DNA from: Gelidibacter japonicus
GTDB taxonomy: Bacteria; Bacteroidota; Bacteroidia; Flavobacteriales; Flavobacteriaceae
Direction: 5' to 3'
NCBI RefSeq assembly: GCF_010725055.1
Contig: NZ_BJKB01000020.1
Location: 1-64,000, forward strand
Length of the DNA stretch: 64,000 nt
The notes beneath the pieces are model-generated. The model had not been told where the DNA came from. It saw nothing but the letters and a program-made list of their open reading frames with translations, and made no database searches. A program made the position numbers and the translations under genes. This document shows, piece by piece, positions 9,266 to 24,083 of the stretch (position 1 is its first letter; every line of letters begins with the position of its first letter).

Positions 9266-10885
9266 ATGAAGGCCCTGAACTACGAAAATATCATTGTTGG
9301 AGGAGGCTTGGCAGGAATATCAACAGCCATTGAGCTCTTAGACCATAATAAAAAAGTGCTCATTATTGAAAGAGATGTGGAGGAGCATTTTGGCGGATTG
9401 GCAAAAAAATCCTTTGGCGGTATTTTGTTTTCTGGAACACCTCAGCAAAAAAAATCTGGGATCAAAGATTCACCGCAATTACTTTACGAGGACTGGATGC
9501 GTTATGGCGATTTCACCGAAACCGATAGTTTAGGCGCACAATGGGCCAAATTTTACTCAGACAATTCCATATCCGTCATTTACAATTGGCTTATTGCAAA
9601 AAAAGTCGACTTCCTTCCTGTGGTCAATTGGCCTGAACGCGGCATGGATGTCAAAGGGAATTCGGTTCCGAGATGGCATATTACCTGGGGAACGGGTTAT
9701 GATTTAACCAATAAAGTGACCAACTATTTATTGAATCATCCAAAAAAAGAACATCTTGAAATAAAGTTTCAACACAAGGTAGAATCAATAATCATCGATA
9801 ATAAAAAGACCGTAGGTGTGGAGGTCATCGACGAATTGACAAAAGAAAGATTCAACATCACTTCTGAAAACATCATTATTGCATCCGGTGGAATTATGGG
9901 CGGCGATTTAAAACTGGTCAAAAGTCATTGGCCAACGCGGTTCCAGACCCCACCAGATAATTTATTAAATGGCTCTCACAAATATGCTGATGGCACCATA
10001 CATTTGGATTTAGACAAAAAAGGAATCCCTTCAACCCATCTAAACAAACAATGGCATTATGCTGCCGGAATTCCCACACCCAATCCAGAGAGAGGAAAAT
10101 TCAGGGATGGTTTAAGTTTAGTTCCGCCACGATCGGCCATTTGGGTGGATGCTACAGGAAAAAGGTTTAGGCCTCCGCTTGTTGCTTATACAGATACTTC
10201 GTATTTTGTTGAACATATCCTCAAAACCAAGGATCAGTACTCATGGAGTATTATGAATTGGAAAATTGCCATAAAGGAATTGGCTGTTTCAGGTTCTGAT
10301 TATATGACGGCTTTTAGAAATCGGGATAAATTGAGATTGATAAAAGACGTTCTCTTTGGAAATAAAGATTTGGTCAATAGATTGATTGAAGAATCGGACC
10401 ACTTTATTGTGGCAGATACGCTTCCCAACTTGGTGAAAAAGATGAATGAGCAAGACGAAAATAACGTTGTGGATTTAGAAACTCTTGAAAAGGATTTGAA
10501 AGCTTATGACGACGAGATCGATAGAGGTAAAAAGTATTTTAATGACGAACAATTACGGCGTTTGGTGAACTTCAGATTGTACAAAGGGGATAAAATCAGA
10601 ACTTCAAAATTTCAAAAGATTTTAGACCCAAAAGCTGGACCATTGATTGCTGTAAAACAATATATATTAAGCAGAAAAAGCTTGGGAGGCCTTCCTACCA
10701 ACCTCAACTCGCAAGTGATTGATAAGAATGGTGATACAGTATCAGGATTATACGCTGTAGGTGAATCTGCCGGATTTGGAGGTGGAGGCATTCATGGATC
10801 ACGATCATTGGAAGGCACTTTTTTAGGATCGTGTATCTTAACAGGCAGAGTTGCCGGTGCACATATAGCAGGAATAAAACTTTAA
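9266..10885 (+). CDS. FAD-binding dehydrogenase, fumarate reductase/3-ketosteroid dehydrogenase-like
   Basis: The 539-residue protein opens with a dinucleotide-binding motif, IIVGGGLAGIS (G12-x-G14-x-x-G17), ending the first beta-alpha-beta at IIERD. The C-terminal flavin site is clear: LYAVGESAGFGGGGIHGSRS then a glycine-rich SILTGR-type end. This matches the soluble FAD_binding_2 group (predicted oxidoreductases related to fumarate reductase and ketosteroid dehydrogenase). It has no signal peptide, so it acts in the cytosol. The next gene, a ThDP enzyme, begins 10 nt after its stop, so the two form an operon and probably act on the same compound. Substrate not known. Confidence 0.88.
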   Translation: MKALNYENIIVGGGLAGISTAIELLDHNKKVLIIERDVEEHFGGLAKKSFGGILFSGTPQQKKSGIKDSPQLLYEDWMRYGDFTETDSLGAQWAKFYSDNSISVIYNWLIAKKVDFLPVVNWPERGMDVKGNSVPRWHITWGTGYDLTNKVTNYLLNHPKKEHLEIKFQHKVESIIIDNKKTVGVEVIDELTKERFNITSENIIIASGGIMGGDLKLVKSHWPTRFQTPPDNLLNGSHKYADGTIHLDLDKKGIPSTHLNKQWHYAAGIPTPNPERGKFRDGLSLVPPRSAIWVDATGKRFRPPLVAYTDTSYFVEHILKTKDQYSWSIMNWKIAIKELAVSGSDYMTAFRNRDKLRLIKDVLFGNKDLVNRLIEESDHFIVADTLPNLVKKMNEQDENNVVDLETLEKDLKAYDDEIDRGKKYFNDEQLRRLVNFRLYKGDKIRTSKFQKILDPKAGPLIAVKQYILSRKSLGGLPTNLNSQVIDKNGDTVSGLYAVGESAGFGGGGIHGSRSLEGTFLGSCILTGRVAGAHIAGIKL

Positions 10886-10895
10886 ATCGAATATT

Positions 10896-12623
10896 ATGAA
10901 GAAAACTGGCGCATGGTTACTGGTCAAGGCATTAGAGCAACTACCGATATCGCACACCTTTGGTATTCCAGGAGTGCACAATACCGAAATTTATGATGAG
11001 CTGAACAAGTCTTCAAAAATCAAACCTATATTGGTCACCCATGAAGGTGGCGGTGCCTTTATGGCCGATGCGGTCAGTCGTACCTCAGAGACAATAGGCA
11101 CCATGGTCATTGTACCAGCCGCTGGAATTACGCATGCTTTAAGCGGAATAGGCGAAGCTTTTTTGGACGGGATTCCTATGCTTATTATCTCGGGTGGCAT
11201 TCGGACTGATGTCAATAAAAGCTATCAGCTTCACGAGTGGGATATGCATTCAGTATTGAGCGGCATCACCAAAAAAACCTATCATATAAAAAAGCATGAA
11301 GAGATTATGGCGAGTGTTTTTGAGGCTTATACCATCGCAGTTTCTGGAAATCCTGGTCCTGTTTTTATAGAAATACCCACGAATATTCAAATGTTTAAAG
11401 GCGAAGTTTCGGAGATTCTATCGTTTAAAAAACCAGAAATTAAACCAACAGTTACCGCCGCGCAATTGGACGAAGCAATCAAGATCATTTCAGAATCTAA
11501 AAAAGTAGGACTGTTTTTAGGATGGGGCGCTAAAGAGGCAACAGCAACGAGCATTCAGATTGCCGAGCGACTAAATGCTCCGGTATCCACAACACTGCAA
11601 GGATTTAGTGTATTTCCTGGTGATCATGAATTATTTACGGGAATGGGCTTTGGCCCCGCATCTGTTCCCGCTTCGGAAAACGCGTTTAAAGATGTGGATT
11701 GTTTAATTGCGGTAGGCACACGATTTGCCGAAATTCCAACGGGCAGTTTCGGCGCCAGAGTACCTGAAAATTTGATCCATATCGATATTGACGAAAATGT
11801 ATTCGATAAGAATTATAAGAGCAAATTGGCCATTCAAGGCGATGCGAAACTGGTTTTAGACAGTTTGTTGGCAGAACTCATCAACAAGAATATCGAAAAA
11901 TCCAATCCTAATTTAATTAGTTCCATAGCAAAAGACAGACAGGCCTATTATAAGGAATGGTCTGATTTTAAATTCGATCGGGTCAATCCTTATCACTTTT
12001 TCACGAGTTTAAGAGCTCATCTCGACGACGATGCCATTACTGTTTTAGATGATGGCAACCACACTTTTTTGACGGTTGAGTTATTTCAAAATCTAAAAAG
12101 CAAGCATTTAATTAGCCCCACCGATTTCAATTGTATGGGCTATTGTGTGCCGGCGGCCATTGGTGCTAAATTTGCCAATCCCAACAAACAAGTGGTCGGC
12201 ATTGTTGGCGATGGTGCATTTTTGATGACCGGACTCGAATTGTTGACCGCAAAACGAAATGAACTTGGAATTGCAATTTTCGTTTTTCACGATGGCGAAC
12301 TTTCCCAAATATCCCAAGGTCAAGAAATCCCTTACAATAGAAAAACAGCTACTGTATTGGGCGATTTCAATATCGATGGCATTGCACATGCGGTTGGCGC
12401 CGACTATTTGGTTATAAAAAATGACGATCAAATTGACGACGTTATCAGTAAGGCTCTCAAAGCGGCGCAGTCAAATAAAACGGTCTTAGTTGATGTACAT
12501 ATCGATTATAAAAAACGCACGCGATTTACGCAAGGTGTTGTGAAATCCGTTTTAGGAAATTTTCCATTGAGCGATAAAGTTCGATTTATTGGCAGAGCGG
12601 TGAAGAGAAAGATTTTGGGATAA
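10896..12623 (+). CDS. Thiamine diphosphate-dependent enzyme, acetolactate synthase-like
   Basis: The 575-residue chain has the three domains of the pyruvate oxidase/acetolactate synthase family: N-terminal PYR domain with catalytic Glu50 (THEGGGAF), central domain (about 190-330) and C-terminal PP domain with the metal motif starting GDGAFLMTG (438-). The usual closing NN of that motif is His465-Asp466 here; Asp can still ligate magnesium, but the first Asn is replaced. There is no obvious regulatory small subunit nearby, so it is unlikely to be the biosynthetic IlvB. It is co-transcribed with the FAD dehydrogenase. A 2-oxoacid decarboxylase or carboligase is plausible; the true reaction is unknown. 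Confidence 0.88.
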   Translation: MKKTGAWLLVKALEQLPISHTFGIPGVHNTEIYDELNKSSKIKPILVTHEGGGAFMADAVSRTSETIGTMVIVPAAGITHALSGIGEAFLDGIPMLIISGGIRTDVNKSYQLHEWDMHSVLSGITKKTYHIKKHEEIMASVFEAYTIAVSGNPGPVFIEIPTNIQMFKGEVSEILSFKKPEIKPTVTAAQLDEAIKIISESKKVGLFLGWGAKEATATSIQIAERLNAPVSTTLQGFSVFPGDHELFTGMGFGPASVPASENAFKDVDCLIAVGTRFAEIPTGSFGARVPENLIHIDIDENVFDKNYKSKLAIQGDAKLVLDSLLAELINKNIEKSNPNLISSIAKDRQAYYKEWSDFKFDRVNPYHFFTSLRAHLDDDAITVLDDGNHTFLTVELFQNLKSKHLISPTDFNCMGYCVPAAIGAKFANPNKQVVGIVGDGAFLMTGLELLTAKRNELGIAIFVFHDGELSQISQGQEIPYNRKTATVLGDFNIDGIAHAVGADYLVIKNDDQIDDVISKALKAAQSNKTVLVDVHIDYKKRTRFTQGVVKSVLGNFPLSDKVRFIGRAVKRKILG

Positions 12624-13295: not shown

Positions 13296-13526
13296 TCAAA
13301 TCCAATCAAGAAAATCTTTTTTAGATAATCCTAATTGTTTTAAGGCATTTTTTATAATAAATTCAGGAACGGGATCAACATGCGATTGAACAGTGATTGG
13401 TCTTAAAAGATCACTTCTTGTCCAATGTTCATGACCACCAGTGGTCCTATTGCATGAACATCCTTGATCTTTCAGAAAATCTCGATATAATTTAAGTGGA
13501 ATATTTCTTAAATGCTTCGTCGACAT
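13296..13526 (-). CDS. hicA: HicA-family toxin (mRNA interferase)
   Basis: The 76-residue basic protein has the dsRBD-like HicA layout: an N-terminal helix, then TTGGHEHWTR with the catalytic-type histidine in the G-x-H position, a strand RPITVQSH and the C-terminal helix IIKNALKQLGLSK, which matches the conserved end of HicA. HicA toxins cleave mRNA without ribosome dependence when not bound by HicB. It lies 5 nt downstream of the antitoxin gene. The order antitoxin then toxin is the reverse of the classical hicAB. Low GC in this block and lack of ties to neighbours suggest a mobile module. Confidence 0.82.
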   Translation of the reverse strand: MSTKHLRNIPLKLYRDFLKDQGCSCNRTTGGHEHWTRSDLLRPITVQSHVDPVPEFIIKNALKQLGLSKKDFLDWI

Positions 13527-13531
13527 AAAGG

Positions 13532-13915
13532 CTAATAGGCAAATTCAACATCTTCTCTTGAAACCTTATAACTCTTGTTATTAACAATGTCATTGTATAA
13601 TGGATTTAAAGAAACCAAATCAGAATCCTTTGGTGGATCGAATTTTGGTTTTTTCTTTGAACCTCTAATCGCCCAACCTAATTCTTTTAAAACCTTCTCT
13701 AAGGTTTTTTTATTATTAGTATAACGAAAGAATTCATGGAGTGCTTCAGAAAAAGACTGCTTTGCTTCTGCCTGAGTGTATCCATAACCGCTTAAATCCA
13801 AAGCAGGGGAATAAATAATGATAACGTTATCTTCCTCAAATTCTACCAACGAAAGACCAACATGATACTTCCCATTTCCAAACCCCAAATCAGCAGTCAA
13901 CTGTAAATTAGACAT
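13532..13915 (-). CDS. hicB: HicB-family antitoxin
   Basis: This 127-residue protein has the RNase H-like HicB N-terminal fold: strands YHVGLSLVEFE and NVIIIYSPALDLSGYGYTQ, followed by the helix AEAKQSFSEALHEFF that is diagnostic for HicB. The C-terminal part (KKTLEKVLKELGW and after) is longer and basic and might bind DNA or the toxin, in place of the ribbon-helix-helix or HTH of other HicB proteins. It precedes hicA by 5 nt, a translationally linked pair. A TATATTTG promoter element lies 22 nt upstream of the start, so autoregulation is likely but no palindrome was noted. Confidence 0.82.
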   Translation of the reverse strand: MSNLQLTADLGFGNGKYHVGLSLVEFEEDNVIIIYSPALDLSGYGYTQAEAKQSFSEALHEFFRYTNNKKTLEKVLKELGWAIRGSKKKPKFDPPKDSDLVSLNPLYNDIVNNKSYKVSREDVEFAY

Positions 13916-13936
13916 AAGATTATTTTATTATTTATT

Positions 13937-13944
13937 CAAATATA
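13937..13944 (-). promoter_or_regulatory. -7 promoter element of hicB-hicA
   Basis: TATATTTG on the minus strand matches TAnnTTTG exactly and lies 21 nt before the hicB start codon. A TTGACA-like sequence is present about 20 nt further upstream; the usual TTTG at the -33 position is not seen. Confidence 0.55.
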
Positions 13945-14074
13945 TGCAATTATTAAAAACCAGTGTCAATAACCTATATAACAAAAAAATAATTAATTAT
14001 TGATCGATTGAAATATAACGCATATATAAATTATGATATTTTAGTCGCAAAAGAATGATCTCAATTACATACTT

Positions 14075-15238
14075 CTAATCTCTTCTTGTAAAGCTACTCA
14101 AGCCTACCCAAGCCGCATTCTGTTTGTCACTTTCAATGGCGGCATGAATAAACTGTACGCCTCTAATGCCGTCGTACACGGTAGGATAATCGGGTGTTTC
14201 AATTTTCGTATCCGTTAGAGATGCATTTACATGTGTGGCAAAGTTCTTATAGACATTGGCAAAAGCTTCCAAATAGCCTTCCGGATGACCAGCCGGAATG
14301 CGAGATGCCGCTATAGCATTTGGATAAAGCTCATGGCCATTAGGTGTGTAAACCACTTTTGGCTTATCTATCCACCTCGTTGTTAATTCATTTGGAGTTT
14401 CCTGATGCCATTCCAAACTACCCTTTTCACCATAAACTCTAATCGAGAAATTATTTTCTTCTCCCACGGCAATTTGAGAAAAAGACATCGTCCCTTTTGC
14501 TCCATTTTCTAAGCGCAGTAAAATATTGCCATCATCGTCCAAAAGGCGACCCTTACCAAATTTTCCTAAATCTGCCGCAAGCTCCTTAACTTTTAATCCA
14601 GTGACATACTCTAACATATTATGGGCATGGGTTCCGATATCTCCCAAGGCACCACCGACACCAGACTTTGAAGGATCCACGCGCCAAACGGCTTGTTTAT
14701 TGCCCGAATCTTCAACGGCAGTTGCCATCCATCCTTGTAAATAATGGACTTGTACTTTTCTGATTTTTCCAAGATCACCATTTTTAACCATGGCTTTTGC
14801 CTGTTTCACCATTGGACTTCCAGGATAATTATGAGTCAATGCAAAATGTAATCCAGTGGATTTTACCAGCTTTTCTAAAACTTTCGCTTCATCTACAGTT
14901 AAGGTCAGCGGTTTATCGCATACGACATGGAATCCATTTTCCAAGGCTAATCTTGCAGGTCCAAAATGCATGTGGTTGGGTGTCACAATGCTTACAAAAT
15001 CCATACGAATATCTTCCGGCAATTCTTTTTCTTTAAGAATCATTTCTTCAAAACTACCATAACAGCGATCTTCAGGAAGCAACAATGCCTTACCTGATGC
15101 TTTTGACTTTTCCGCAGTGCTGCTGAAAGCACCACAGACCAATTCAATCATTCCATCAAGACCTGATGCTTTTCTGTGTACATCTCCAATAAAAGAGCCA
15201 ATGCCTCCACCGATCATTCCCATTCTTAATTTTCTCAT
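14075..15238 (-). CDS. Gfo/Idh/MocA-family oxidoreductase, cytosolic type
   Basis: The 387-residue enzyme has an N-terminal NAD(P)-binding Rossmann domain (MGMIGGGIGSFIGDVH, residues 7-22) and the C-terminal GFO_IDH_MocA dimerisation/substrate domain. The conserved CDKPLTLTVDEA provides the family lysine, and GDIGTHAHNMLEYVTG is the typical catalytic-histidine segment. No signal peptide is present, unlike its relative three genes upstream, so it probably works in the cytosol. It closes a four-gene operon with DUF1080, a Tat-exported Gfo protein and a sugar-isomerase-like lipoprotein. Expected role: NAD(H)-linked oxidation or reduction of a keto-sugar, for example interconverting 3-keto and normal sugars. 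Confidence 0.9.
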   Translation of the reverse strand: MRKLRMGMIGGGIGSFIGDVHRKASGLDGMIELVCGAFSSTAEKSKASGKALLLPEDRCYGSFEEMILKEKELPEDIRMDFVSIVTPNHMHFGPARLALENGFHVVCDKPLTLTVDEAKVLEKLVKSTGLHFALTHNYPGSPMVKQAKAMVKNGDLGKIRKVQVHYLQGWMATAVEDSGNKQAVWRVDPSKSGVGGALGDIGTHAHNMLEYVTGLKVKELAADLGKFGKGRLLDDDGNILLRLENGAKGTMSFSQIAVGEENNFSIRVYGEKGSLEWHQETPNELTTRWIDKPKVVYTPNGHELYPNAIAASRIPAGHPEGYLEAFANVYKNFATHVNASLTDTKIETPDYPTVYDGIRGVQFIHAAIESDKQNAAWVGLSSFTRRD

Positions 15239-15409
15239 GTTTGTATTATCTGTTTTGATATTTTACTTTGAATTTAAAATCATTTAAATAGAAATTCCTT
15301 GTGCGTTAGAATGATGAATCTGATGGAATAACATGTGTTGCCTATCAAAATCATTCAGGGGCACGAGGAATTTCAATACGTTGAGCTTAGGTTTTCGACA
15401 AACCTCTGC

Positions 15410-16174
15410 TTATAATTCCTTAATCTTAATATTTCTAAACCAAACGTCGTCGCCATGATCTTGTAAACCGATATAGCCTTCGTTGGCTACATCTGCCCAA
15501 TTTTCATTTAGGCTCGGGAATTTACTTCCAGCAACCAATTCGTTCCATTCCGGCGTCCACAAATGGTATTCCACAACATTGACACCATTTTGCTTATGGA
15601 CAACAGTTCCATTATAGACGGTAATCTCCACTTGATTCCATTGGCCTACAGGTTTGGCATTTTGCGGTTTTGCCGGAATCAAATCGTAGAGTGATCCTGC
15701 TTGTCTGTTGCCGTCTTTACCTAATTTAGCATCCGGGTGCTTGTCATTATCCAATACTTGCATCTCAGGTGCCGTTTTCCAGATATAATCCAAGTCTTCC
15801 TGGCCAAGATAAAAAATACCGGAATTTCCGCCTTCAGAGATTTTCCATTCCAAACTCAAAGTGAAATTTTTAAACTTTTTATCATAGATAATGTCGCCAC
15901 CATCTTTATGCCCAGCTTCACCTCGACCTGATCCTATACAATGAATGGTTCCGTCAACAATTTTCCAAGCCTCAGGAAAGTGATCCTTTTTATAACCTCG
16001 CCAACCTTCTGAAGACGTGCCATCAAAAAGAACGATCCAATCATTTTCATTATCTTCATTTACATCCATAGTTTCTGTTTCTGTTTCGGTAGTTTCCTTG
16101 GTTTTTTCTTTACAACTCGATAAGAAAGGCATGAGCACTAAGCTAAAAATGACAATCACACTTAATTTTTTCAT
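15410..16174 (-). CDS. DUF1080 lipoprotein (3-keto-disaccharide hydrolase/lyase family), paralogue 1
   Basis: The 254-residue product has a lipoprotein signal (MPFLSS before Cys21), an acidic linker of Thr/Glu/Asp, and one DUF1080 domain of concanavalin-like fold beginning DWIVLFDGTSSEGWRGY. Conserved blocks include GGDIIYDKKFKNFTL, EGGNSGIFYLGQE, PEMQVLDNDKHPDAK and the end GYIGLQDHGDDVWFRNIKI. Members of this family cleave 3-keto-glycosides by elimination or hydrolysis. The enzyme should sit in the envelope facing the periplasm or outside. Its neighbours are two Gfo/Idh/MocA proteins and a sugar-isomerase-like lipoprotein; a second DUF1080 gene lies in the divergent operon. Confidence 0.9.
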   Translation of the reverse strand: MKKLSVIVIFSLVLMPFLSSCKEKTKETTETETETMDVNEDNENDWIVLFDGTSSEGWRGYKKDHFPEAWKIVDGTIHCIGSGRGEAGHKDGGDIIYDKKFKNFTLSLEWKISEGGNSGIFYLGQEDLDYIWKTAPEMQVLDNDKHPDAKLGKDGNRQAGSLYDLIPAKPQNAKPVGQWNQVEITVYNGTVVHKQNGVNVVEYHLWTPEWNELVAGSKFPSLNENWADVANEGYIGLQDHGDDVWFRNIKIKEL

Positions 16175-16221
16175 TGGTTTACTATTTTAGATTTATATGT
16201 TATTTATTAAAATTCTATATA

Positions 16222-17733
16222 TTACGAAGGCATGTCCGGTAAAGTCCAACCCTCCCTATAGGTGTGTTTTATAAGCTCTTGAGAGTATGCAATGGCATTC
16301 ATAGGCTCTGTCCAATCTTTGTTAAAAGTTGGATGACCATCATGGATTTTAAAGCCGTCCTTGATCACGGTTCTAATTTCTTCGTTGGCGCCAATGTTCG
16401 TAAACTTCATATTTGCACCATCCCATTCCAAAACCTTATTTAAGGCCTGAAGTCTTACGGCAAGGACGCCCATAACGACCATTTCATTAAAAGGGCCTGC
16501 CACCGCAAAATCAGAAATTGTAGGTTTTCTACTTTCTGGATTTTCTTTACAGGCACGCACCCAATCCATTTCATGTGCACCGCTTTTCCACGATAAACCG
16601 AGTTCTTCTTCAACCCTTCTCTCTGTTTTAGGCGCAGCTATTGATTTGCCTGACATCAATTCAGGTTCAATACCGTAACACCCCACATGAAGAATGTCCT
16701 TAGTACCGTAGAAGAAAGTCCCGCCACCCGATTTGTTCGGATTTTTTCCTGCAGGCCAGTTATCTGGTAACATCGGTTGGATACCACCGTCATACCAATG
16801 TACATCTACTTCGTCTAATTTGATTTTACCTTTTCTTCCTCTTGAAGGAAAGCTTAGTTTTACTGCCTGAGAAACCGGAGCGGAGTCGTTTAATAATAAC
16901 GACGAACTTGCTTGTACTTTATTGGGATATCCTAATTGAAGACCTTCAAATACAGGATGCAAAACATGGCAAGCCATATCGCCCAAGGCACCAGTTCCAT
17001 AATCCCACCACCCACGCCAATTCCATGGATGATACACTTCACTGAAGGGTCTCATCTTAGCCGGGCCCGTAAACAAATCCCAGTCTAATGTGTCCGGAAC
17101 CCAATCGCCTCTTTCAGGTGTATTTAATCCCTGTGGCCAGATTGGACGATCCGTAAAAGATTCCACTCTTTTCACATCGCCAATGGCACCGCTCCAGAGA
17201 ATTTCGCAAGTTTTGGCAACACCTTCCCCAGAAGCACCTTGGTTCCCCATTTGTGTGGCCACTTTATGTTTTTCTGCCAGTTTTGTCAATAACCGCGACT
17301 CATAAACTGAGTGGGTTAAAGGTTTTTGAAGAAAGACGTGCTTGCCCATAGTCATGGCATGTGCAGCAATAATGGCATGGGTATGATCAGCCGTTGCAAT
17401 AACAACTGCATCTATATCTTTGCCCATTTCGTCAAACATTTTACGCCAATCCCAATATTTTTTTGCATTTGGGAATGTGGTCGCCGCACCTGCAGCGTAT
17501 TTCCAATCCACATCACAAAGTGCGACGATATTCTGCGACGATAGATTTTTTAGGTTAGCAAGACCCATCCCACCAACGCCAATTCCGGCAATATTCAATT
17601 TGTCACTCGGTGCAACATGGCCCAAACCACTTACTGCATAAGAAGGTATGATGGAAAAAGCCGCCGTAGCTGCCATGGACATGCCTACAAACTTTCGTCT
17701 GGAAATTGTATGGTCTTTATTAGATTTGCTCAT
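16222..17733 (-). CDS. Tat-exported Gfo/Idh/MocA-family oxidoreductase
   Basis: The 503-residue protein starts with a twin-arginine signal, ISRRKFVGMSMAATAAF, so it should be folded with its cofactor before export to the periplasm. The Rossmann segment is NIAGIGVGGMGLANLKNL; HVFLQKPLTHSVYESRLL carries the family lysine. The C-terminal half has the larger insertions found in the exported members (WHPWNWRGWWDYGTGALGD-like region with the conserved histidines and DYGTGAL). Such proteins often keep a tightly bound NAD(P) and act without free cofactor. It lies between the sugar-isomerase-like gene and DUF1080 in the same operon, fitting a self-regenerating redox step on a glycoside at C3. Confidence 0.9.
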   Translation of the reverse strand: MSKSNKDHTISRRKFVGMSMAATAAFSIIPSYAVSGLGHVAPSDKLNIAGIGVGGMGLANLKNLSSQNIVALCDVDWKYAAGAATTFPNAKKYWDWRKMFDEMGKDIDAVVIATADHTHAIIAAHAMTMGKHVFLQKPLTHSVYESRLLTKLAEKHKVATQMGNQGASGEGVAKTCEILWSGAIGDVKRVESFTDRPIWPQGLNTPERGDWVPDTLDWDLFTGPAKMRPFSEVYHPWNWRGWWDYGTGALGDMACHVLHPVFEGLQLGYPNKVQASSSLLLNDSAPVSQAVKLSFPSRGRKGKIKLDEVDVHWYDGGIQPMLPDNWPAGKNPNKSGGGTFFYGTKDILHVGCYGIEPELMSGKSIAAPKTERRVEEELGLSWKSGAHEMDWVRACKENPESRKPTISDFAVAGPFNEMVVMGVLAVRLQALNKVLEWDGANMKFTNIGANEEIRTVIKDGFKIHDGHPTFNKDWTEPMNAIAYSQELIKHTYREGWTLPDMPS

Positions 17734-17766
17734 AATTTATACGAATTTAGATAAGTTAAAATATGT

Positions 17767-18738
17767 TTATTCGGAGAGTTCCTTTCCTATTTTTATCAAG
17801 AGGTCTCTTGTCAATTCGATTCCTTCTTCTTCACTGACATTGCTTCCTTCAAATTCTACCCCCACATAACCGGTATACCCAGCGTCCTTAACAATCTTCA
17901 AAAAGCGAGGATAATCAAGTGTCGTTTCATTCCCTTCCTTGTCAAAATCATAAGACTTGGCACTAACCCCTTTGGCATAAGGCATCATCTCTTCGGTACC
18001 TTTATATTTATCGTACTCTTCAATACATTTTCCTCTCCAATTTTCACCACTATCACGTTTCACGCAAAAATTGCCGAAGTCAGGCAAGGTCCCACAATTT
18101 TCCATGTCTATATTCTTTATGACACGCGTTAAAAGTTCGGCATTGGAAGAAAATCCGCCATGGTTTTCGACAATCACATTGATTCCTTTAGATTGGCCAT
18201 ACTCTGCCAATTGTCTTAAACCTATTGTGGCATTTGAAATCCAGTCGTCCTCATTTTTAGAGCCGAAAAGATTGACCCGAATAGAATGACAGCCCAAGAA
18301 ATCGGCAGCATCCACCCATTTTTTATGATTTTCAACCGCTTGATTTCTTTCTTGTTCATCAGATGCAGCCAAATCACCTTCACCGTCAATCATAATCAAA
18401 ACATTTTCAATATCATATTCTACACTTTTCGCTTTTAAAGTATCAAGAAGCGCTTCCATCCCCATGGATTCTATCTTTTTAGTATAAAGCCCTGACACAT
18501 ATTCTATTCCTTCAAATCCCATTTCTTTGGCCTTTTCAGCAAAGTCCACAGGATCCAATTGATCACTTCCAATGGCTCTATGCAGGGACCACTGCGCTAA
18601 CGACAATTTAAAAAACGGCTCCTTGACTTCAGTTGACACCTGCTCTTTTTCAGACTTTGACGCACTCTCTTTGCATCCTAAGAACATAGTCGTTAAAGTA
18701 AAAAGTAGAAATAAAGGAATAATGGTATTTTTGGTCAT
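17767..18738 (-). CDS. Sugar phosphate isomerase/epimerase-like TIM-barrel lipoprotein
   Basis: From the ATG at 18738 the product is 323 residues, beginning with a lipoprotein signal (MFLG before Cys22). The remainder is an AP_endonuc_2/xylose isomerase-like TIM barrel: LAQWSLHRAIG, AKEMGFEGIEYVSGLY, GINVIVENHGGFSSN, GTLPDFGNF and GYVGVEFEG, with the usual Glu/His/Asp metal ligands on barrel strand ends. Exported members are reported to act on 3-keto-glycosides (elimination or hydration) rather than on sugar phosphates. It is the first gene of the minus-strand operon. An upstream ATG at 18777 would add 13 residues before the signal peptide and is less likely. Confidence 0.88.
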   Translation of the reverse strand: MTKNTIIPLFLLFTLTTMFLGCKESASKSEKEQVSTEVKEPFFKLSLAQWSLHRAIGSDQLDPVDFAEKAKEMGFEGIEYVSGLYTKKIESMGMEALLDTLKAKSVEYDIENVLIMIDGEGDLAASDEQERNQAVENHKKWVDAADFLGCHSIRVNLFGSKNEDDWISNATIGLRQLAEYGQSKGINVIVENHGGFSSNAELLTRVIKNIDMENCGTLPDFGNFCVKRDSGENWRGKCIEEYDKYKGTEEMMPYAKGVSAKSYDFDKEGNETTLDYPRFLKIVKDAGYTGYVGVEFEGSNVSEEEGIELTRDLLIKIGKELSE

Positions 18739-18774
18739 AATAATATTGGTTTGATCGTTTAGTATTAATTCTTT

Positions 18775-18782
18775 CAAAAATA
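18775..18782 (-). promoter_or_regulatory. -7 promoter element of the minus-strand sugar operon
   Basis: TATTTTTG on the minus strand matches TAnnTTTG and lies 36 nt before the chosen start of the TIM-barrel gene. The -33 region reads CTTTAG rather than TTTG, so the promoter may need an activator. Confidence 0.45.
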
Positions 18783-18927
18783 AAGAAAGATGAATTTACT
18801 AAAGTTTCATTAGAATTTAACTAATTTGACCAAGTTTAGCCTTTATTAATATTCAACCCCGAATAAATTGTGGTTATTTTTCATATTTTAGTAGGCTATT
18901 AAGAGTTATGAAAATTAAAAATAGAAG

Positions 18928-20619
18928 ATGATAAAAGATCATTATGACGCTATTGTCATTGGGACAGGAATAAGCGGTGGTTGGGCAGCCAAGGAATTAT
19001 GTGAAAATGGCTTAAAAACTTTAGTCCTTGAGAGAGGGCGAATGGTGAAACACGGCGATTATCCCACCATGCATGATGATCCTTGGGATTTGGAACTACG
19101 TGGAGCCACCACCGCTGAGGAGAAAAAAAGACAGGAAAAACAAGCCAGAACCGGCTATACTACCGCTGCAGAAAGTAAACATTGGTTTGTTGATGATATC
19201 AAACATCCTTATAACGAAATCAAGCGTTTTGATTGGATGCGTGGTTATCATGTTGGCGGTCGTTCACTGACATGGGGACGTCAGAGTTACCGTTTAAGCG
19301 ATCTGGACTTTACGGCCAATATAAAAGATGGTCACGGTGTGGATTGGCCCATACGCTATAAAGATATTGCACCGTGGTATGACTATGTAGAAAGACATGT
19401 TGGCATTAGTGGTGAAGCTTTAGGATTGCCGCATTTGCCGGATAGTATTTTTTCACCACCTATGGAATTAACTTGTGTTGAAGAAGAATTTAAATCGAAA
19501 ATTGCCAGTAATTACGAGGACCGATTGTTAACGATCGGCAGAGTTGCTCATCTCACAGGTAATCACAATCATAAAGGCAGGAGCAATTGCCAATATAGAA
19601 ATAGATGCATCAGAGGCTGTCCTTATGGTGCTTATTTCAGCAGTAACGCATCCACATTGCCTGCTGCCGAAGAAACCGGGAATATGACTTTAAGACCAAA
19701 TTCCATTGTCCATGAAATTATTTATGACGACCAACTAAAGAAAGCAACTGGTGTTAAGGTTATCGATGCCGAAACCAAAGAAACTTATGTCTTTAACGCC
19801 GATATCATCTTCTGCTGTGCGTCGGCAATAGCTTCAGCGTCCATATTGATGCAATCCAAATCAGAGCGGTTTCCAAATGGATTGGGCAACGATTCGGGAG
19901 AGTTAGGTCATAATATCATGGATCATCATTTAGGGGCTGGTGCCAACGCCAGAGTAGAGGGCTTTGAAGACCAATATTTTAAAGGACGACGACCAAACGG
20001 CGTCTATATTCCGAGATTTAGAAACTTAGGTGATGAAGCCACAGAACGAAAAGACTTTCTGAGAGGTTATGGATATCAAGGTGGTGGTGGACGAAACGGC
20101 ATGTCAGAGCACGTTGCGGAAATAGGCTATGGTGAAAAATTCAAAGAAGCCATTTTAAAACCTGGAGAGTGGACCATGGGCATTATGGGCTTTGGTGAGT
20201 GTTTACCGTATCATGACAATAAAATGACTTTGGATTATGACAAGTTGGACGATTGGGGCTTACCAACAGTCACCTTTGATGCCGAGTGGAAAGAAAATGA
20301 ATTGGCCATGCGTGAGGATATTAAACAACAAGCTGCTGAAATGTTGGAAAAAGCAGGTTTTAAGGATGTCAAGACTTTTGATATGAGACATGCACCGGGC
20401 ATTGGCATCCATGAAATGGGAACTGCACGTATGGGAAGAGATCCAAAAACTTCTGTGCTTAATGCCAATAATCAAGTACACGGCGTTCCTAATGTATATG
20501 TTACGGATGGGGCCTGTATGACCTCATCGGGATGTCAAAATCCATCCTTGACCTATATGGCACTAACGGCAAGAGCTGCACATCATGCCGTGGAACAGTT
20601 CAAATCAAATAAAGCGTAA
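18928..20619 (+). CDS. GMC-family FAD oxidoreductase, glucoside 3-dehydrogenase large subunit-like
   Basis: The 563-residue flavoprotein has the GMC N-terminal FAD motif AIVIGTGISGGWAAKEL, the GGRSLTWGRQSYR segment, a cysteine-bearing CIRGCPYGAYFSS typical of membrane-type gluconate/sorbitol/glucoside dehydrogenases, and the C-terminal HEMGTARMGRDP plus TDGACMTSSGCQNPSLT with the catalytic His/Asn area. It has no export signal. The next gene, 2 nt downstream, is a Tat-targeted small subunit, so the pair probably crosses the membrane together and passes electrons to the respiratory chain. In this context C3 oxidation of glucosides is the likeliest reaction. Confidence 0.9.
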   Translation: MIKDHYDAIVIGTGISGGWAAKELCENGLKTLVLERGRMVKHGDYPTMHDDPWDLELRGATTAEEKKRQEKQARTGYTTAAESKHWFVDDIKHPYNEIKRFDWMRGYHVGGRSLTWGRQSYRLSDLDFTANIKDGHGVDWPIRYKDIAPWYDYVERHVGISGEALGLPHLPDSIFSPPMELTCVEEEFKSKIASNYEDRLLTIGRVAHLTGNHNHKGRSNCQYRNRCIRGCPYGAYFSSNASTLPAAEETGNMTLRPNSIVHEIIYDDQLKKATGVKVIDAETKETYVFNADIIFCCASAIASASILMQSKSERFPNGLGNDSGELGHNIMDHHLGAGANARVEGFEDQYFKGRRPNGVYIPRFRNLGDEATERKDFLRGYGYQGGGGRNGMSEHVAEIGYGEKFKEAILKPGEWTMGIMGFGECLPYHDNKMTLDYDKLDDWGLPTVTFDAEWKENELAMREDIKQQAAEMLEKAGFKDVKTFDMRHAPGIGIHEMGTARMGRDPKTSVLNANNQVHGVPNVYVTDGACMTSSGCQNPSLTYMALTARAAHHAVEQFKSNKA

Positions 20620-20621
20620 TT

Positions 20622-21224
20622 ATGAATAGAAGAGACGCACTTAAAGGAATGGGCTTGTCATTGGGCTATATTATTGCAACGCCTACCATCCTGAGCATGC
20701 TTCAAAGTTGTAGTACGAAAGCGGAAAAGTGGGTACCTCTATTCCACTCCGATATACAGGCTTTAGTTTTAGAGGGGCTAGTCGATTTGATTTTACCAAA
20801 AACAAAAGACACTCCTGGCGCATTGGATGTCAATGTTCCTAAATTTATTGATCTTTATGTGGCTGAAGCATTAACCGACGAAGACAAAGAAACCTATAAG
20901 TTGGGTTTTGAGGCTGTTATGGACGAGTTGGGCATACCAAATGTAGAACCAGACCCCGAACAACCTATCAAGTTAAAAACGGAAGACCTTGACGCCATCC
21001 TTTCAAAATACTTACGGATTTCAAAAGCGCAAAGATTAGCGTATATCACAGAAGAACATTTAGTTTTCATGACTCTCTTGACCATACGCGATCAAACGGT
21101 TTGGGCCTATAAAACAAGTAAGGAGATTGGCAAGAATGTATTGGCCTATGATCCCGTACCCGGTGAGCAAAAAGGATGTATTTCTGTAGAAGAAGCAACT
21201 GGAGGCAAAGCTTGGTCACTATAA
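20622..21224 (+). CDS. Gluconate 2-dehydrogenase subunit 3 family protein, Tat-exported small subunit
   Basis: The 200-residue protein begins MNRRDALKGMGLSLGYII, a twin-arginine signal, followed by a possible lipobox-like Cys30. The body is the gluconate_2-dh3 domain: IQALVLEGLVDLILPKTKDT near the start and LRISKAQRLAYITEEHLVF later. Such small subunits are needed for folding and export of GMC dehydrogenases. It lies 2 nt after the GMC gene, so the two are co-translated. No cytochrome c subunit follows, which in other species accepts the electrons; another acceptor must serve here. Confidence 0.9.
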   Translation: MNRRDALKGMGLSLGYIIATPTILSMLQSCSTKAEKWVPLFHSDIQALVLEGLVDLILPKTKDTPGALDVNVPKFIDLYVAEALTDEDKETYKLGFEAVMDELGIPNVEPDPEQPIKLKTEDLDAILSKYLRISKAQRLAYITEEHLVFMTLLTIRDQTVWAYKTSKEIGKNVLAYDPVPGEQKGCISVEEATGGKAWSL

Positions 21225-21297
21225 ATATTGACCCTGTTTTATCGAAAAAACTTCCATAAAGATAAAATTCAATAAAAAACACTTTAAACATATCAGG

Positions 21298-22122
21298 ATG
21301 CACAAAATAATCAACCCAATGTCAATAGCTCTAATTGCTTTACTCATCGTAGGCTGCAAATCAAAACCAGAATCTGAAAGCAAGGAGGTAGAGGTTGAAG
21401 AAGAAATGACTGAAAATTGGATCTCTTTATTTAACGGAAAAGATTTAGACGGATGGTCTCCAAAAATCAAAGGTTACGACTTTGGCGACAATGTACACAA
21501 CACTTTTCGTGTAGAGGATGGTGTGATTAAAGTGTCCTATGATGGTTATGACGGTAAGTTCAATGATGCTTTTGGGCATCTTTTTTATAAAACGCCATTT
21601 TCCAATTATATATTGAGAATGCAATACCGATTTACCGGAGAACAAATTGAAGATGGCGCGGGTTGGGCGACCAGAAACAGTGGGGTAATGATTCATTGTG
21701 AAGATCCTAAACACATGGCCAAAGACCAAAATTTCCCATTGAGCATGGAAGTACAGATGTTAGGTGGTATTACCGAAGGTGTAAGCCGACCAACAGGAAA
21801 TCTTTGCACCCCTGGTACCAATGTGGTCATGGATGGCGAGCTGATTACCGAACATTGTACCAATTCAAATTCTGACACTTATTATGGAGACCCATGGGTG
21901 AGTTTAGAAGTTGAAGTTCACAGCGATTCTTTAATCATCCATAAGGTAAATGGCAAAGAAGTGCTGAGATATTCGAAACCACAATACGGCGGTGCCGATA
22001 TGGATGAATACAGTGCAGCGTACAAAGACAAAATAGGTGAAACCATAAAGGGAGGTTATATTTCTTTGCAAAGCGAAAGTCATCCAACCGAATTTAGAAA
22101 TATTGAATTGTTGGAGTTGTAG
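21298..22122 (+). CDS. DUF1080 lipoprotein (3-keto-glycoside hydrolase/lyase family), paralogue 2
   Basis: The 274-residue product has a lipoprotein signal (LLIVG before Cys20), an acidic linker, and one DUF1080 domain from NWISLFNGKDLDGWSPKI. Later blocks are GHLFYKTPFSNYILRMQYR, GWATRNSGVMIHCEDP and the ending GGYISLQSESHPTEFRNIEL, in which QSESHPTEF replaces the QDHGDDVWF of paralogue 1. These differences in the substrate-face loops suggest another substrate. The gene is third in the GMC operon, 73 nt after the small subunit, and should act on the oxidised glycoside made by that dehydrogenase. Confidence 0.9.
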   Translation: MHKIINPMSIALIALLIVGCKSKPESESKEVEVEEEMTENWISLFNGKDLDGWSPKIKGYDFGDNVHNTFRVEDGVIKVSYDGYDGKFNDAFGHLFYKTPFSNYILRMQYRFTGEQIEDGAGWATRNSGVMIHCEDPKHMAKDQNFPLSMEVQMLGGITEGVSRPTGNLCTPGTNVVMDGELITEHCTNSNSDTYYGDPWVSLEVEVHSDSLIIHKVNGKEVLRYSKPQYGGADMDEYSAAYKDKIGETIKGGYISLQSESHPTEFRNIELLEL

Positions 22123-22319
22123 AAAATTATAAACAAGAAATTGATAATTATTAGGGTTATATTGACGCTATATATTTAGAAACGTTCAAATGGTTATTCC
22201 AAATTTCATCTTTTTGAATCCTAAAGTCCCTTCATTTACAAGAAACACTTAAGAAAAGTAAATAAGACGAGTGGCAATAACCTTTTTTTATGCTGAGTTG
22301 GGCTTCCAATCCATTTTTT

Positions 22320-24083
22320 TTAAAGTCCTGCGATATATCCATCCAAGAAGTTAGCCCTACTACTAACCCAAGTTTTTAGTTCCACAACATCTTTCCCGAA
22401 GTCCAGACTTCCAACATTCCACTTTTCGAGATCTCTGGCTTGCGATTTTTTTATTAGTTCAGCATACTCATCAATATAGACTATGAGTTCATTAAGATGC
22501 ATTGATTTAAAGTCAGTCCACTTTTCCATCAACAACTGTTTTGTAGACGGGTCGGTTAATAATCTTAGGAAAAAGATGGTTCCTATACTATCACTGTTGT
22601 TCCAGAACAATGGGGTATTTGGAGAAATAAAATGTTTTCTATCGCCATCAAAAGAAAAAGCCCAATCAAAATCCCAAATCGGACCCATGGTATATTTACC
22701 TCCTTTTTCTTTAAATAAAAAGGTGCTTTTTGGATGATTAATTTCAATGTTCGCAGTAAGCAAATAAACAATCAAGTAATCAACCAGTGCCTCTTGATCA
22801 AATAGATCAAGATAGCCAGAGTTGGGAAAACTATCGGAAAACACTCTATTTTCGAATTCTTCAAACTCAAACTTAATTTGATTAAACTCCTCCTCTGCAT
22901 CTGCTGTATCATACTTTTTTAATTTTGGATATTTTATTTGTACGGGTAAATTGTAAGCAGCAGACTTAAATTTCCAATCCTCATCGAAATAAGTATCCAT
23001 TTCCAATAACTGTCCATCCGTTTTAACATTTACTCTATTTTCATCCACTTCAATCTGTTCAGTAAGCATATAATTGCCCAGATACTCGCCATTAAGCGTT
23101 AATTCCACAGGAATCATATGATTTGCATATTTGACCTCAAGTAGTCTTCCAATTTTCATGGCCACTGCATTAAGCATTAATGTTTCATCGTAATGATTAG
23201 CCAAAAGCACCCAATTTTTAGCTTCCTTCAATCCAAGGATAGAAGCCTTTTTATTTAATTTTATACGATAAGGTTTTTTAGGTCGATGCCAAGTACTATT
23301 CCCTCTTCCCCTAATTTCGGTAGTGGCCTCAAAATCTTCATAAACCTCAACACCATCAATGGTCAGCCTAGCCGGTATATAAATGTCTTTGGATATTATC
23401 GGCCTTCCTCCTTCCGTATCAATATAAAACTGTGGAATATCCCTTTGCCACTCCACGACAATTACATAGTCCTGTGTAAAGCCGTTTTCATAAATCAAAG
23501 AGTAAGTTACTGGCTGAGAAAAATCATTCTTAGTAATCGAACTTATTTGTGTTGTGTTATTGACTTGAACGTCTGTGGCGTTGGTCTTAAATGAAGCGAC
23601 AAGATTTTTATTGGTCCCCTTCATTTTAATATGAAGTGTATCTTCTGAAAACGACAGCTCATAATCTTTAAACAATCCTTCGTTCTCTTCCTTTTTAAAA
23701 GAAAAGGAGGTGAATTGCAGGTATTCTATAACAAGTCGATAAGCTACCACGCTTCCATTTTCAGCTACTATCTCATAATAGTGCTCTTGGCTAAAATCAT
23801 TTTCAGTTAGTCCTGATAATTGTTCAACTCCATTAAGATAAACGCCCTCACCCAGAAAATCAAAGCTTGCCACAAGTCTGGTCAAATCTATATTTTGAGG
23901 AAGAAATACACGAATGACAGATCCATCAACCTCTCCCACAATATCTTCTTGTAAATAATCTGAATTGTTCGCACTCTCAAAAATGAAACTCAACAACTCT
24001 TTTTCGTGATTTTTAATATCATCCTTAACACAAGAAGTGAAAACAGAAAAAACTAAAAACAGACTAAAAATACTCTTACGCAT
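22320..24083 (-). CDS. CotH kinase family lipoprotein
   Basis: The 587-residue protein has a lipoprotein signal (SVFTS before Cys18), two repeated beta-sandwich domains (about 28-120 and 120-215, each ending YEIVAENGSVVAYRLVIE or YSLIYENGFTQDYVIVVE), and then a CotH kinase domain. The latter shows EIRGRGNSTWHRPKKPYRIK, GEYLGNYMLTEQIE and the metal-binding GPIWDFDWAFSF. CotH proteins of spore formers phosphorylate coat protein; in Bacteroidetes the secreted forms have no assigned target. It stands alone between the sugar locus and fhs. The two N-terminal domains may bind surface partners. Confidence 0.88.
   Translation of the reverse strand: MRKSIFSLFLVFSVFTSCVKDDIKNHEKELLSFIFESANNSDYLQEDIVGEVDGSVIRVFLPQNIDLTRLVASFDFLGEGVYLNGVEQLSGLTENDFSQEHYYEIVAENGSVVAYRLVIEYLQFTSFSFKKEENEGLFKDYELSFSEDTLHIKMKGTNKNLVASFKTNATDVQVNNTTQISSITKNDFSQPVTYSLIYENGFTQDYVIVVEWQRDIPQFYIDTEGGRPIISKDIYIPARLTIDGVEVYEDFEATTEIRGRGNSTWHRPKKPYRIKLNKKASILGLKEAKNWVLLANHYDETLMLNAVAMKIGRLLEVKYANHMIPVELTLNGEYLGNYMLTEQIEVDENRVNVKTDGQLLEMDTYFDEDWKFKSAAYNLPVQIKYPKLKKYDTADAEEEFNQIKFEFEEFENRVFSDSFPNSGYLDLFDQEALVDYLIVYLLTANIEINHPKSTFLFKEKGGKYTMGPIWDFDWAFSFDGDRKHFISPNTPLFWNNSDSIGTIFFLRLLTDPSTKQLLMEKWTDFKSMHLNELIVYIDEYAELIKKSQARDLEKWNVGSLDFGKDVVELKTWVSSRANFLDGYIAGL

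Follow-up and report, generated by a model that had tools for sequence, protein, structure and literature searches.

A recurrent gene cluster of Gelidibacter japonicus that appears to combine a GMC-linked, LacABC-like operon with a BT2158/BT2157-type module: possible role in oxidative glycoside cleavage

Several described gene sets bear on the locus considered here, two divergent groups of genes with a predicted role in the oxidative cleavage of glycosides, which lie in a stretch of 64,000 nucleotides (assembly GCF_010725055.1, contig NZ_BJKB01000020.1, positions 1 to 64,000; hereafter the window) from the marine bacterium Gelidibacter japonicus. According to those parts of the cited papers that are drawn on here, BT2156-BT2158 of Bacteroides thetaiotaomicron (B. 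theta) are an isomerase/epimerase, a DUF1080 protein and a Gfo/Idh/MocA (Gfo) protein (PMC10434189); BT2158 is periplasmic and its mutant fails to grow on trehalose, leucrose and palatinose (PMC11300592), BT2157 and BT2158 being dispensable for raffinose-family sugars (PMC11501099). The lactose cluster of Caulobacter has a transporter, two epimerases and a reductase beside lacABC and a DUF1080 gene, and LacABC clusters with DUF1080 genes also occur in Pedobacter, Indibacter and others, with LacA similarity of 40% or more (PMC9007349). The GlycDH/AtOGE/AtHYD/Gfo operon of Agrobacterium tumefaciens provides for oxidation, elimination, hydration and reduction; two of its products, named 'sugar phosphate isomerases', are an eliminase and, on a preliminary assignment, a hydratase, and its Gfo protein reduces 3-keto-glucose (PMC10628242).

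The initial annotation of the window described seven genes in two divergent groups, and this description held: the open reading frame (ORF) list of the window has all seven at the coordinates and on the strands given below, and Pfam confirms the family of each.

14075-15238, minus strand: GfoB, a Gfo/Idh/MocA oxidoreductase lacking an export signal and presumed to reduce 3-keto sugars in the cytosol.
15410-16174, minus strand: DUFa, a BT2157-like DUF1080 lipoprotein (PF06439, 187.6 bits), eliminase/hydratase candidate.
16222-17733, minus strand: GfoA, a Gfo/Idh/MocA protein predicted to be exported by twin-arginine translocation (Tat; motif SRRKFV), BT2158-family glycoside 3-dehydrogenase.
17767-18738, minus strand: TIM, a PF01261 TIM-barrel lipoprotein (90.4 bits; lipobox FLGC), candidate lyase or hydratase.
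18739-18927, no strand: divergent intergenic region separating the two gene groups.
18928-20619, plus strand: GMC, the large subunit of a flavin adenine dinucleotide (FAD) dehydrogenase (PF05199/PF00732), candidate respiratory glycoside 3-dehydrogenase.
20622-21224, plus strand: Small, a PF13618 (Gluconate_2-dh3) protein (72.5 bits; Tat motif NRRDAL).
21298-22122, plus strand: DUFb, a divergent DUF1080 lipoprotein (PF06439), predicted eliminase.

The gaps between the listed ORFs, in window order, are 171, 47, 33, 150 (divergent), 2 and 73 bases. TIM probably starts later than the listed TTG at 18777: a normal lipoprotein start is obtained from the ATG at 18738. Export signals were assigned by simple motif scans rather than signal-peptide predictors; these found a lipobox in TIM, DUFa and DUFb, and a twin-arginine motif in GfoA and Small; GMC and GfoB showed neither.

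By its sequence GfoA is clearly an exported BT2158-family glycoside 3-dehydrogenase, scoring 853.6 bits against NF058561, the NCBIfam equivalog for BT_2158-type glycoside 3-dehydrogenases (cut-off 750), and aligning, from residue 37 to 502, with the dehydrogenase structure 8tdf (713.8 bits). The solved relatives of DUFa are 8v31, 8rr2, 8tda and 3osd (E about 3e-79), the last of which is the BT2157 structure. His240 of DUFa corresponds to His275 of BT2157 in the 3osd/8rr2 alignment, a match that assumes that the entry number equals the chain position plus 25 and that the alignment ends in register; the motif LQDH followed by G or N is present in all 26 aligned DUFa proteins. DUFb has LQSESHP where DUFa has LQDHG and a His at 262, and since none of its His residues matches BT2157 His275, the two DUF1080 proteins are, as judged from these alignments, not equivalent and of different subfamilies.

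GfoB has the domains PF01408/PF22725/PF02894 and is closest, among solved structures, to 3v5n (389.5 bits). The minus-strand genes had been likened to the B. theta set, and this likeness extends to the BT2158-type GfoA, the BT2157-like DUFa and the TIM lipoprotein but not to the cytosolic Gfo. Against the BT2159-family model (cut-off 650) GfoB scores 16.8 bits, which rules out its being BT2159, and GfoA 31.4 bits, so that the cluster holds no BT2159-family gene. By comparison with relatives, GfoB is a part of the GMC-type operon, presumably as its reductase. TIM, with 4ovx as a solved relative (280.2 bits), shares the PF01261 TIM-barrel family and is a candidate counterpart of BT2156. That the substrate might be a cyclitol or free sugar rather than a glycoside deserves mention here, because the Gfo, TIM and GMC families all have members of that kind, the solved relatives of GfoB include inositol dehydrogenases by name, and family names alone do not prove oxidation at C3 of a glycoside. 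We regard it as very improbable, given that an equivalog named for glycoside 3-dehydrogenases is passed by 103 bits and that two DUF1080 proteins are present.

The best solved relative of GMC is the large subunit of fructose dehydrogenase, with which a C-X5-C-X3-C motif is aligned; in the fructose dehydrogenase family this motif binds a 3Fe-4S cluster, and it is kept in all 95 GMC relatives of more than 60% identity. LacA is likewise of the GMC type. Small exceeds the PF13618 cut-off of 23.4 bits by a wide margin, at 72.5, and is the sole PF13618 match of the genome besides its duplicate on contig C18 (discussed below); it presumably carries GMC through export. Three smaller genomes of the genus (L122, L129 and L130, from G005, G007 and G001, respectively) have a further GMC and small-subunit pair (66% identity), which lacks GfoA and TIM and adjoins genes resembling, by eye, galT, galK and a sugar symporter.

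The usual setting of GMC in relatives is different. The loci compared were the best 80 of 580 by GMC similarity, with neighbours mapped by blastp (E 1e-6, half of the query covered) in flanks of 10 kb; contig ends lie near the cluster in L037, L038, L044, L057 and L086. The common layout comprises GMC, Small, TIM, a permease of the MFS_1 or the Nuc_H_symport type (one of each scanned), a Gfo reductase, a second TIM protein (TIM2) for which no export signal is seen by eye, and usually a DUF1080 protein, DUFb being present in 30 of the 66 permease-type loci. Those 66 have the permease and TIM2 but not GfoA, whereas nine, five of them from Gelidibacter together with L021, L037, L053 and L074, have GfoA and neither permease nor TIM2; in these hybrid loci the BT2157-type DUFa accompanies GfoA. 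GfoA was found together with the permease or TIM2 in none of the 80. A permease alone is present in L086, and all three are missing from L038, L044, L057 and L080.

Within the genus the gene order is repeated in five named Gelidibacter loci, with the exceptions that L012 lacks GfoB and L010 has an extra gene between Small and DUFb; because of this repetition the arrangement is not a matter of chance. In the gene-order comparison suggested with the initial annotation, the arrangement recurs inside the genus; most relatives (66/80) have the permease and TIM2 without GfoA. In L012 (G. algens) a DDE transposase gene (PF01609; L012:4789-5991) occupies the place that GfoB has in other Gelidibacter, and the locus contains no GfoB remnant. 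The extra gene of L010 (G. maritimus; L010:12608-13723) is unrelated and on the minus strand; since it intervenes, DUFb is not simply co-transcribed in that species.

For the GMC-linked BT2158/BT2157 hybrid, the sequences show which genes are present, their order, the pattern of replacement and the recurrence of that pattern. Two oxidation branches side by side, as first described, are correct as anatomy, and comparison with relatives adds that they reflect a recurrent exchange of modules. In a tree of 82 GMC proteins, 11 of them hybrids (the nine loci, the window and L127; the five loci with neither label are in the tree but uncounted), the hybrid state needs five changes, four of them forced by well-supported branches, and a single hybrid clade is rejected by the approximately unbiased (AU) test on a quick tree (p-AU 1.1e-58). 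The TIM tree likewise needs five changes, four forced. Across the phylum, the BT_2158 cut-off is passed in 23 of 395 Bacteroidota genomes, and neighbourhoods were compared in 20 of these (that is, all except G162, the window's own G000, and G039, which was taken in separately). Four of the 20 loci, from one genus of another Bacteroidota family, have TIM, GfoA, DUFa, a GMC protein, a small subunit and GfoB near one another. The GMC protein of this second type of hybrid is only 32-33% identical to that of the window, so that the combination arose with two different GMC proteins; its small subunit is a Gluconate_2-dh3 protein in L146, the one scanned. Neither permease nor TIM2 was found within five genes in the four loci, nor genome-wide (0/4).

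The pattern extends beyond the immediate loci. At the thresholds used, and with positive controls run, both permease types and TIM2 were not found anywhere in the window's genome. TIM2 is present in 26 of the 118 genomes searched and in none of the nine genomes of the genus (G000-G008, G000 being that of the window); the same figures, 26/118 and 0/9, apply to the Nuc_H_symport permease, which reaches at least 65% identity in 18 genomes, all TIM2-positive. The MFS_1 permease was recovered in 4/4 controls and in none of 15 others (the nine Gelidibacter, G054, G032 and the four second-type hybrids), and TIM2 in 3/3 controls and none of eight further hybrid genomes. The genomes of L021, L037, L053 and L074, all metagenome-assembled, lack TIM2, and three of them also lack the Nuc_H_symport permease. 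Among 38 GMC-positive genomes (G086, with a GMC protein of 32%, being left out and GfoA being scored at 53% identity or more), 23 have TIM2 without GfoA, 8 GfoA without TIM2, 2 both and 5 neither (Fisher p = 8.6e-4, kinship not corrected). An apparently complete pathway, as initially proposed, is consequently doubtful, the usual permeases and TIM2 not being found genome-wide and a heme-c motif (CXXCH) not being found in any window ORF of 60 residues or more.

It may be that the absence of the import genes reflects a different end to the pathway. The chemistry of each step is taken by analogy from characterised relatives. The backbone would be the Flavobacteriaceae form of a LacABC-like system, in which GMC, exported with the Tat-dependent Small, carries out the C3 oxidation of the glycoside and feeds the electrons into the respiratory chain, probably via a c-type cytochrome coded elsewhere; GfoA would provide an alternative C3 oxidation, with electrons going to bound NAD. 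Elimination could be catalysed by DUFa, DUFb or TIM, and hydration by DUFa or TIM. In most relatives the 3-keto sugar would then be imported by the linked permease, handled by the cytosolic TIM2 and reduced by a cytosolic Gfo. Reduction in the hybrid could be by GfoB after uptake or, alternatively, by GfoA in the periplasm: by retaining NAD(H), GfoA might both oxidise the glycoside and reduce the 3-keto product there, GMC acting as a second, respiratory entry and free sugar rather than keto sugar being taken up. Periplasmic reduction of this kind would explain the loss of the permease and TIM2; both it and the interplay of GfoA with GMC are purely conjectural. That the two gene groups form a hybrid operon pair by which glycosides are cleaved oxidatively and without hydrolysis outside the cytoplasm, GfoA reducing the keto sugar in the periplasm, we consider about as likely as not. 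A more specific proposal is possible but doubtful, namely that the import half of the pathway (permease and cytosolic TIM) has repeatedly given way to a BT2158/BT2157-type module, so that the pathway closes in the periplasm, with GfoA shuttling hydride between the glycoside and the 3-keto sugar, GMC as a respiratory entry that can also reset GfoA, and DUFb as an eliminase without the hydratase His, hydration falling to DUFa or TIM.

A number of observations weigh against replacement of import by periplasmic reduction. GfoB, the presumed cytosolic reductase, is kept in six of the nine hybrid loci (L037 being cut at that place), which suggests that some keto sugar still enters the cell; GfoB or GfoB2 is present in 66/66 permease-type loci. 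GfoA2, a Tat-type exported BT2158 relative (504.8 and 510.0 bits in the two scanned, cut-off 750), is coded on the GMC strand of at least 10 of the 80 loci, each of them permease-type, the count being a lower bound because of the 10-kb flanks. A strict rule that an exported Gfo excludes the permease is thereby ruled out: an exported Gfo is not incompatible with import, and the exchange is no simple replacement. At the genome level, GfoA and TIM2 coexist at separate sites in G039 and G044, and the L053 genome codes, on another contig, for a relative (39%) of the Nuc_H_symport permease. The Fisher probability overstates independence, since six of the eight GfoA-positive, TIM2-negative GMC genomes belong to one genus and GfoA of G032 lies about 100 kb from the nearest GMC. 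With a support of 87, the GfoB proteins of seven hybrids group in a single clade, an indication that GfoA, DUFa and GfoB travelled as a set on at least one occasion; the recurrence may thus in part reflect the transfer of one cassette rather than repeated invention.

Some of the same comparisons allow the two gene groups to be read as independent systems that share a neighbourhood and TIM, GMC and DUFb acting on, for example, galactosides and GfoA and DUFa on, for example, alpha-glucosides, trehalose among them, with separate fates for the keto sugars. GfoA and DUFa do occur without an adjoining GMC (L126, L124), as does GfoA in 16 of the 20 phylum loci; DUF1080 proteins of two different subfamilies are kept; and the other GMC pair of the three smaller genomes of the genus stands beside the galK/galT-like genes seen by eye. 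Such a separation would leave unexplained the absence of the permease and TIM2 where GfoA is present, and the same combination with a distant GMC. It is a serious possibility, though on balance an unlikely one.

Evidence on electron transfer from GMC comes from relatives. In Aquimarina, 11 of 16 loci have a lipoprotein-like ORF with a heme-c motif 23-54 bp ahead of GMC (a PF00034 cytochrome c in the single case scanned), and because of this preceding lipoprotein the GMC arm looks respiratory; in six other loci of the 80, an ORF with a heme-c motif lies 0.6-4.8 kb from GMC on the other strand. The want of a linked cytochrome c gene in the window would fit a scheme in which GfoA is the working dehydrogenase and GMC an auxiliary, oxidising free sugars or resetting, via the keto sugar, a GfoA stuck with NADH, the net reaction being a redox-neutral hydrolysis. 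The requirement for BT2158 in growth of B. theta on trehalose, leucrose and palatinose, as given in the part of that report used here (PMC11300592), points the same way. An auxiliary GMC is nonetheless improbable, in that Small accompanies GMC in 80/80 and TIM in 77/80 of the loci, which were found by GMC, whereas GfoA comes and goes.

Turning to the surroundings, the statement that no SusC, SusD or glycoside hydrolase is nearby is upheld for the 40 window ORFs run against Pfam, a scan that did not take in small ORFs and several in the 24.5-29.3 kb interval; for the pair at 9266-12623, an FAD dehydrogenase and an acetolactate-synthase-like protein, the assignment is by NCBIfam only. The GMC protein shares 94% identity with its G. 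pelagius counterpart. Window positions 1518-38303 recur at 100% identity on contig C18 of this assembly (36,786 bases, to the contig end). A second genomic copy was rejected, this identity making assembly overlap probable, although a true recent duplication is possible; the probable overlap doubles the genome count of the locus genes, and matches on C18 were not treated as extra copies here. A regulatory signal shared through the divergent region was also rejected: promoter-like sites in 13300-22400 number 25, with 24.1 expected from shuffles, i.e. no excess, and alignment of the region across seven loci gave no clear operator. A gene for an AraC-type regulator (HTH_18 in the single case scanned) is present in 22 of the 66 permease-type loci and one of the nine hybrid loci, and none is present in the window.

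Three further observations concern neighbouring or similar genes. A gene for a CotH kinase domain protein follows DUFb on the opposite strand (22320-24083). In L018 a sulfatase-modifying-factor-like gene (FGE-sulfatase; L018:13121-14089) follows DUFb, and L016 has a similar ORF by eye. The window's genome has a further set, L091 (G000:C1:445.3-448.2 kb), in which a Tat-type Gfo gene is followed by two DUF1080 genes.

The hybrid and its permease-type relatives offer a natural comparison of two finishes to one glycan-breaking chemistry, import followed by reduction and reduction outside the cell. If the proposal of periplasmic closure is true, a pathway ending in the cytosol has been turned into one closing in the periplasm in several Bacteroidota lineages. 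The loci also supply GMC-type candidates for C3 oxidation of glycosides and a DUF1080 subfamily (DUFb) whose predicted product, 2-hydroxy-3-keto-glucal, serves in enzymatic C-glycosylation according to the part of the source cited (PMC13273386). Were such loci annotated from the B. theta model alone, the cytosolic Gfo would be misnamed. The hybrid was not met in the titles and abstract openings of those open PubMed Central papers that the literature searches listed; two articles, 10.1038/s41586-024-07574-y (Nature 2024) and 10.1002/anie.202410681 (Angew. Chem. 2024), may mention it.

Compared with the described systems, the Gelidibacter locus shares with BT2156-BT2158 the same three families, GfoA passing the BT_2158 model and DUFa matching the BT2157 structure 3osd. 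It differs in its order, which is TIM, GfoA, DUFa, GfoB, in having no BT2159-family gene in the cluster, and in the addition of the GMC pair and a second DUF1080 gene. With LacABC clusters, including those of Bacteroidetes, it has in common, at the level of gene families, a GMC-type dehydrogenase, a small subunit, a DUF1080 protein and epimerase-type and reductase-type genes; by contrast, it has no linked cytochrome c, no transporter and one TIM protein in place of two epimerases, and a BT2158-type dehydrogenase is added. The permease-type operon of the relatives resembles the Caulobacter lactose cluster, so far as the part of that account used here describes it (PMC9007349). The A. tumefaciens operon is alike in its steps of oxidation, elimination, hydration and reduction; in the portion of its description drawn upon it has one oxidation branch and no DUF1080 protein is named, whereas several parts of the Gelidibacter system are predicted to be exported. 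Since a BT2159-family gene is missing from the cluster, as are a linked cytochrome c and a transporter, the locus is best classed, from its gene content, as a hybrid that combines, and would function like, two known kinds of system, a LacABC-like operon and a BT2157/BT2158 module, and as a member of neither alone.

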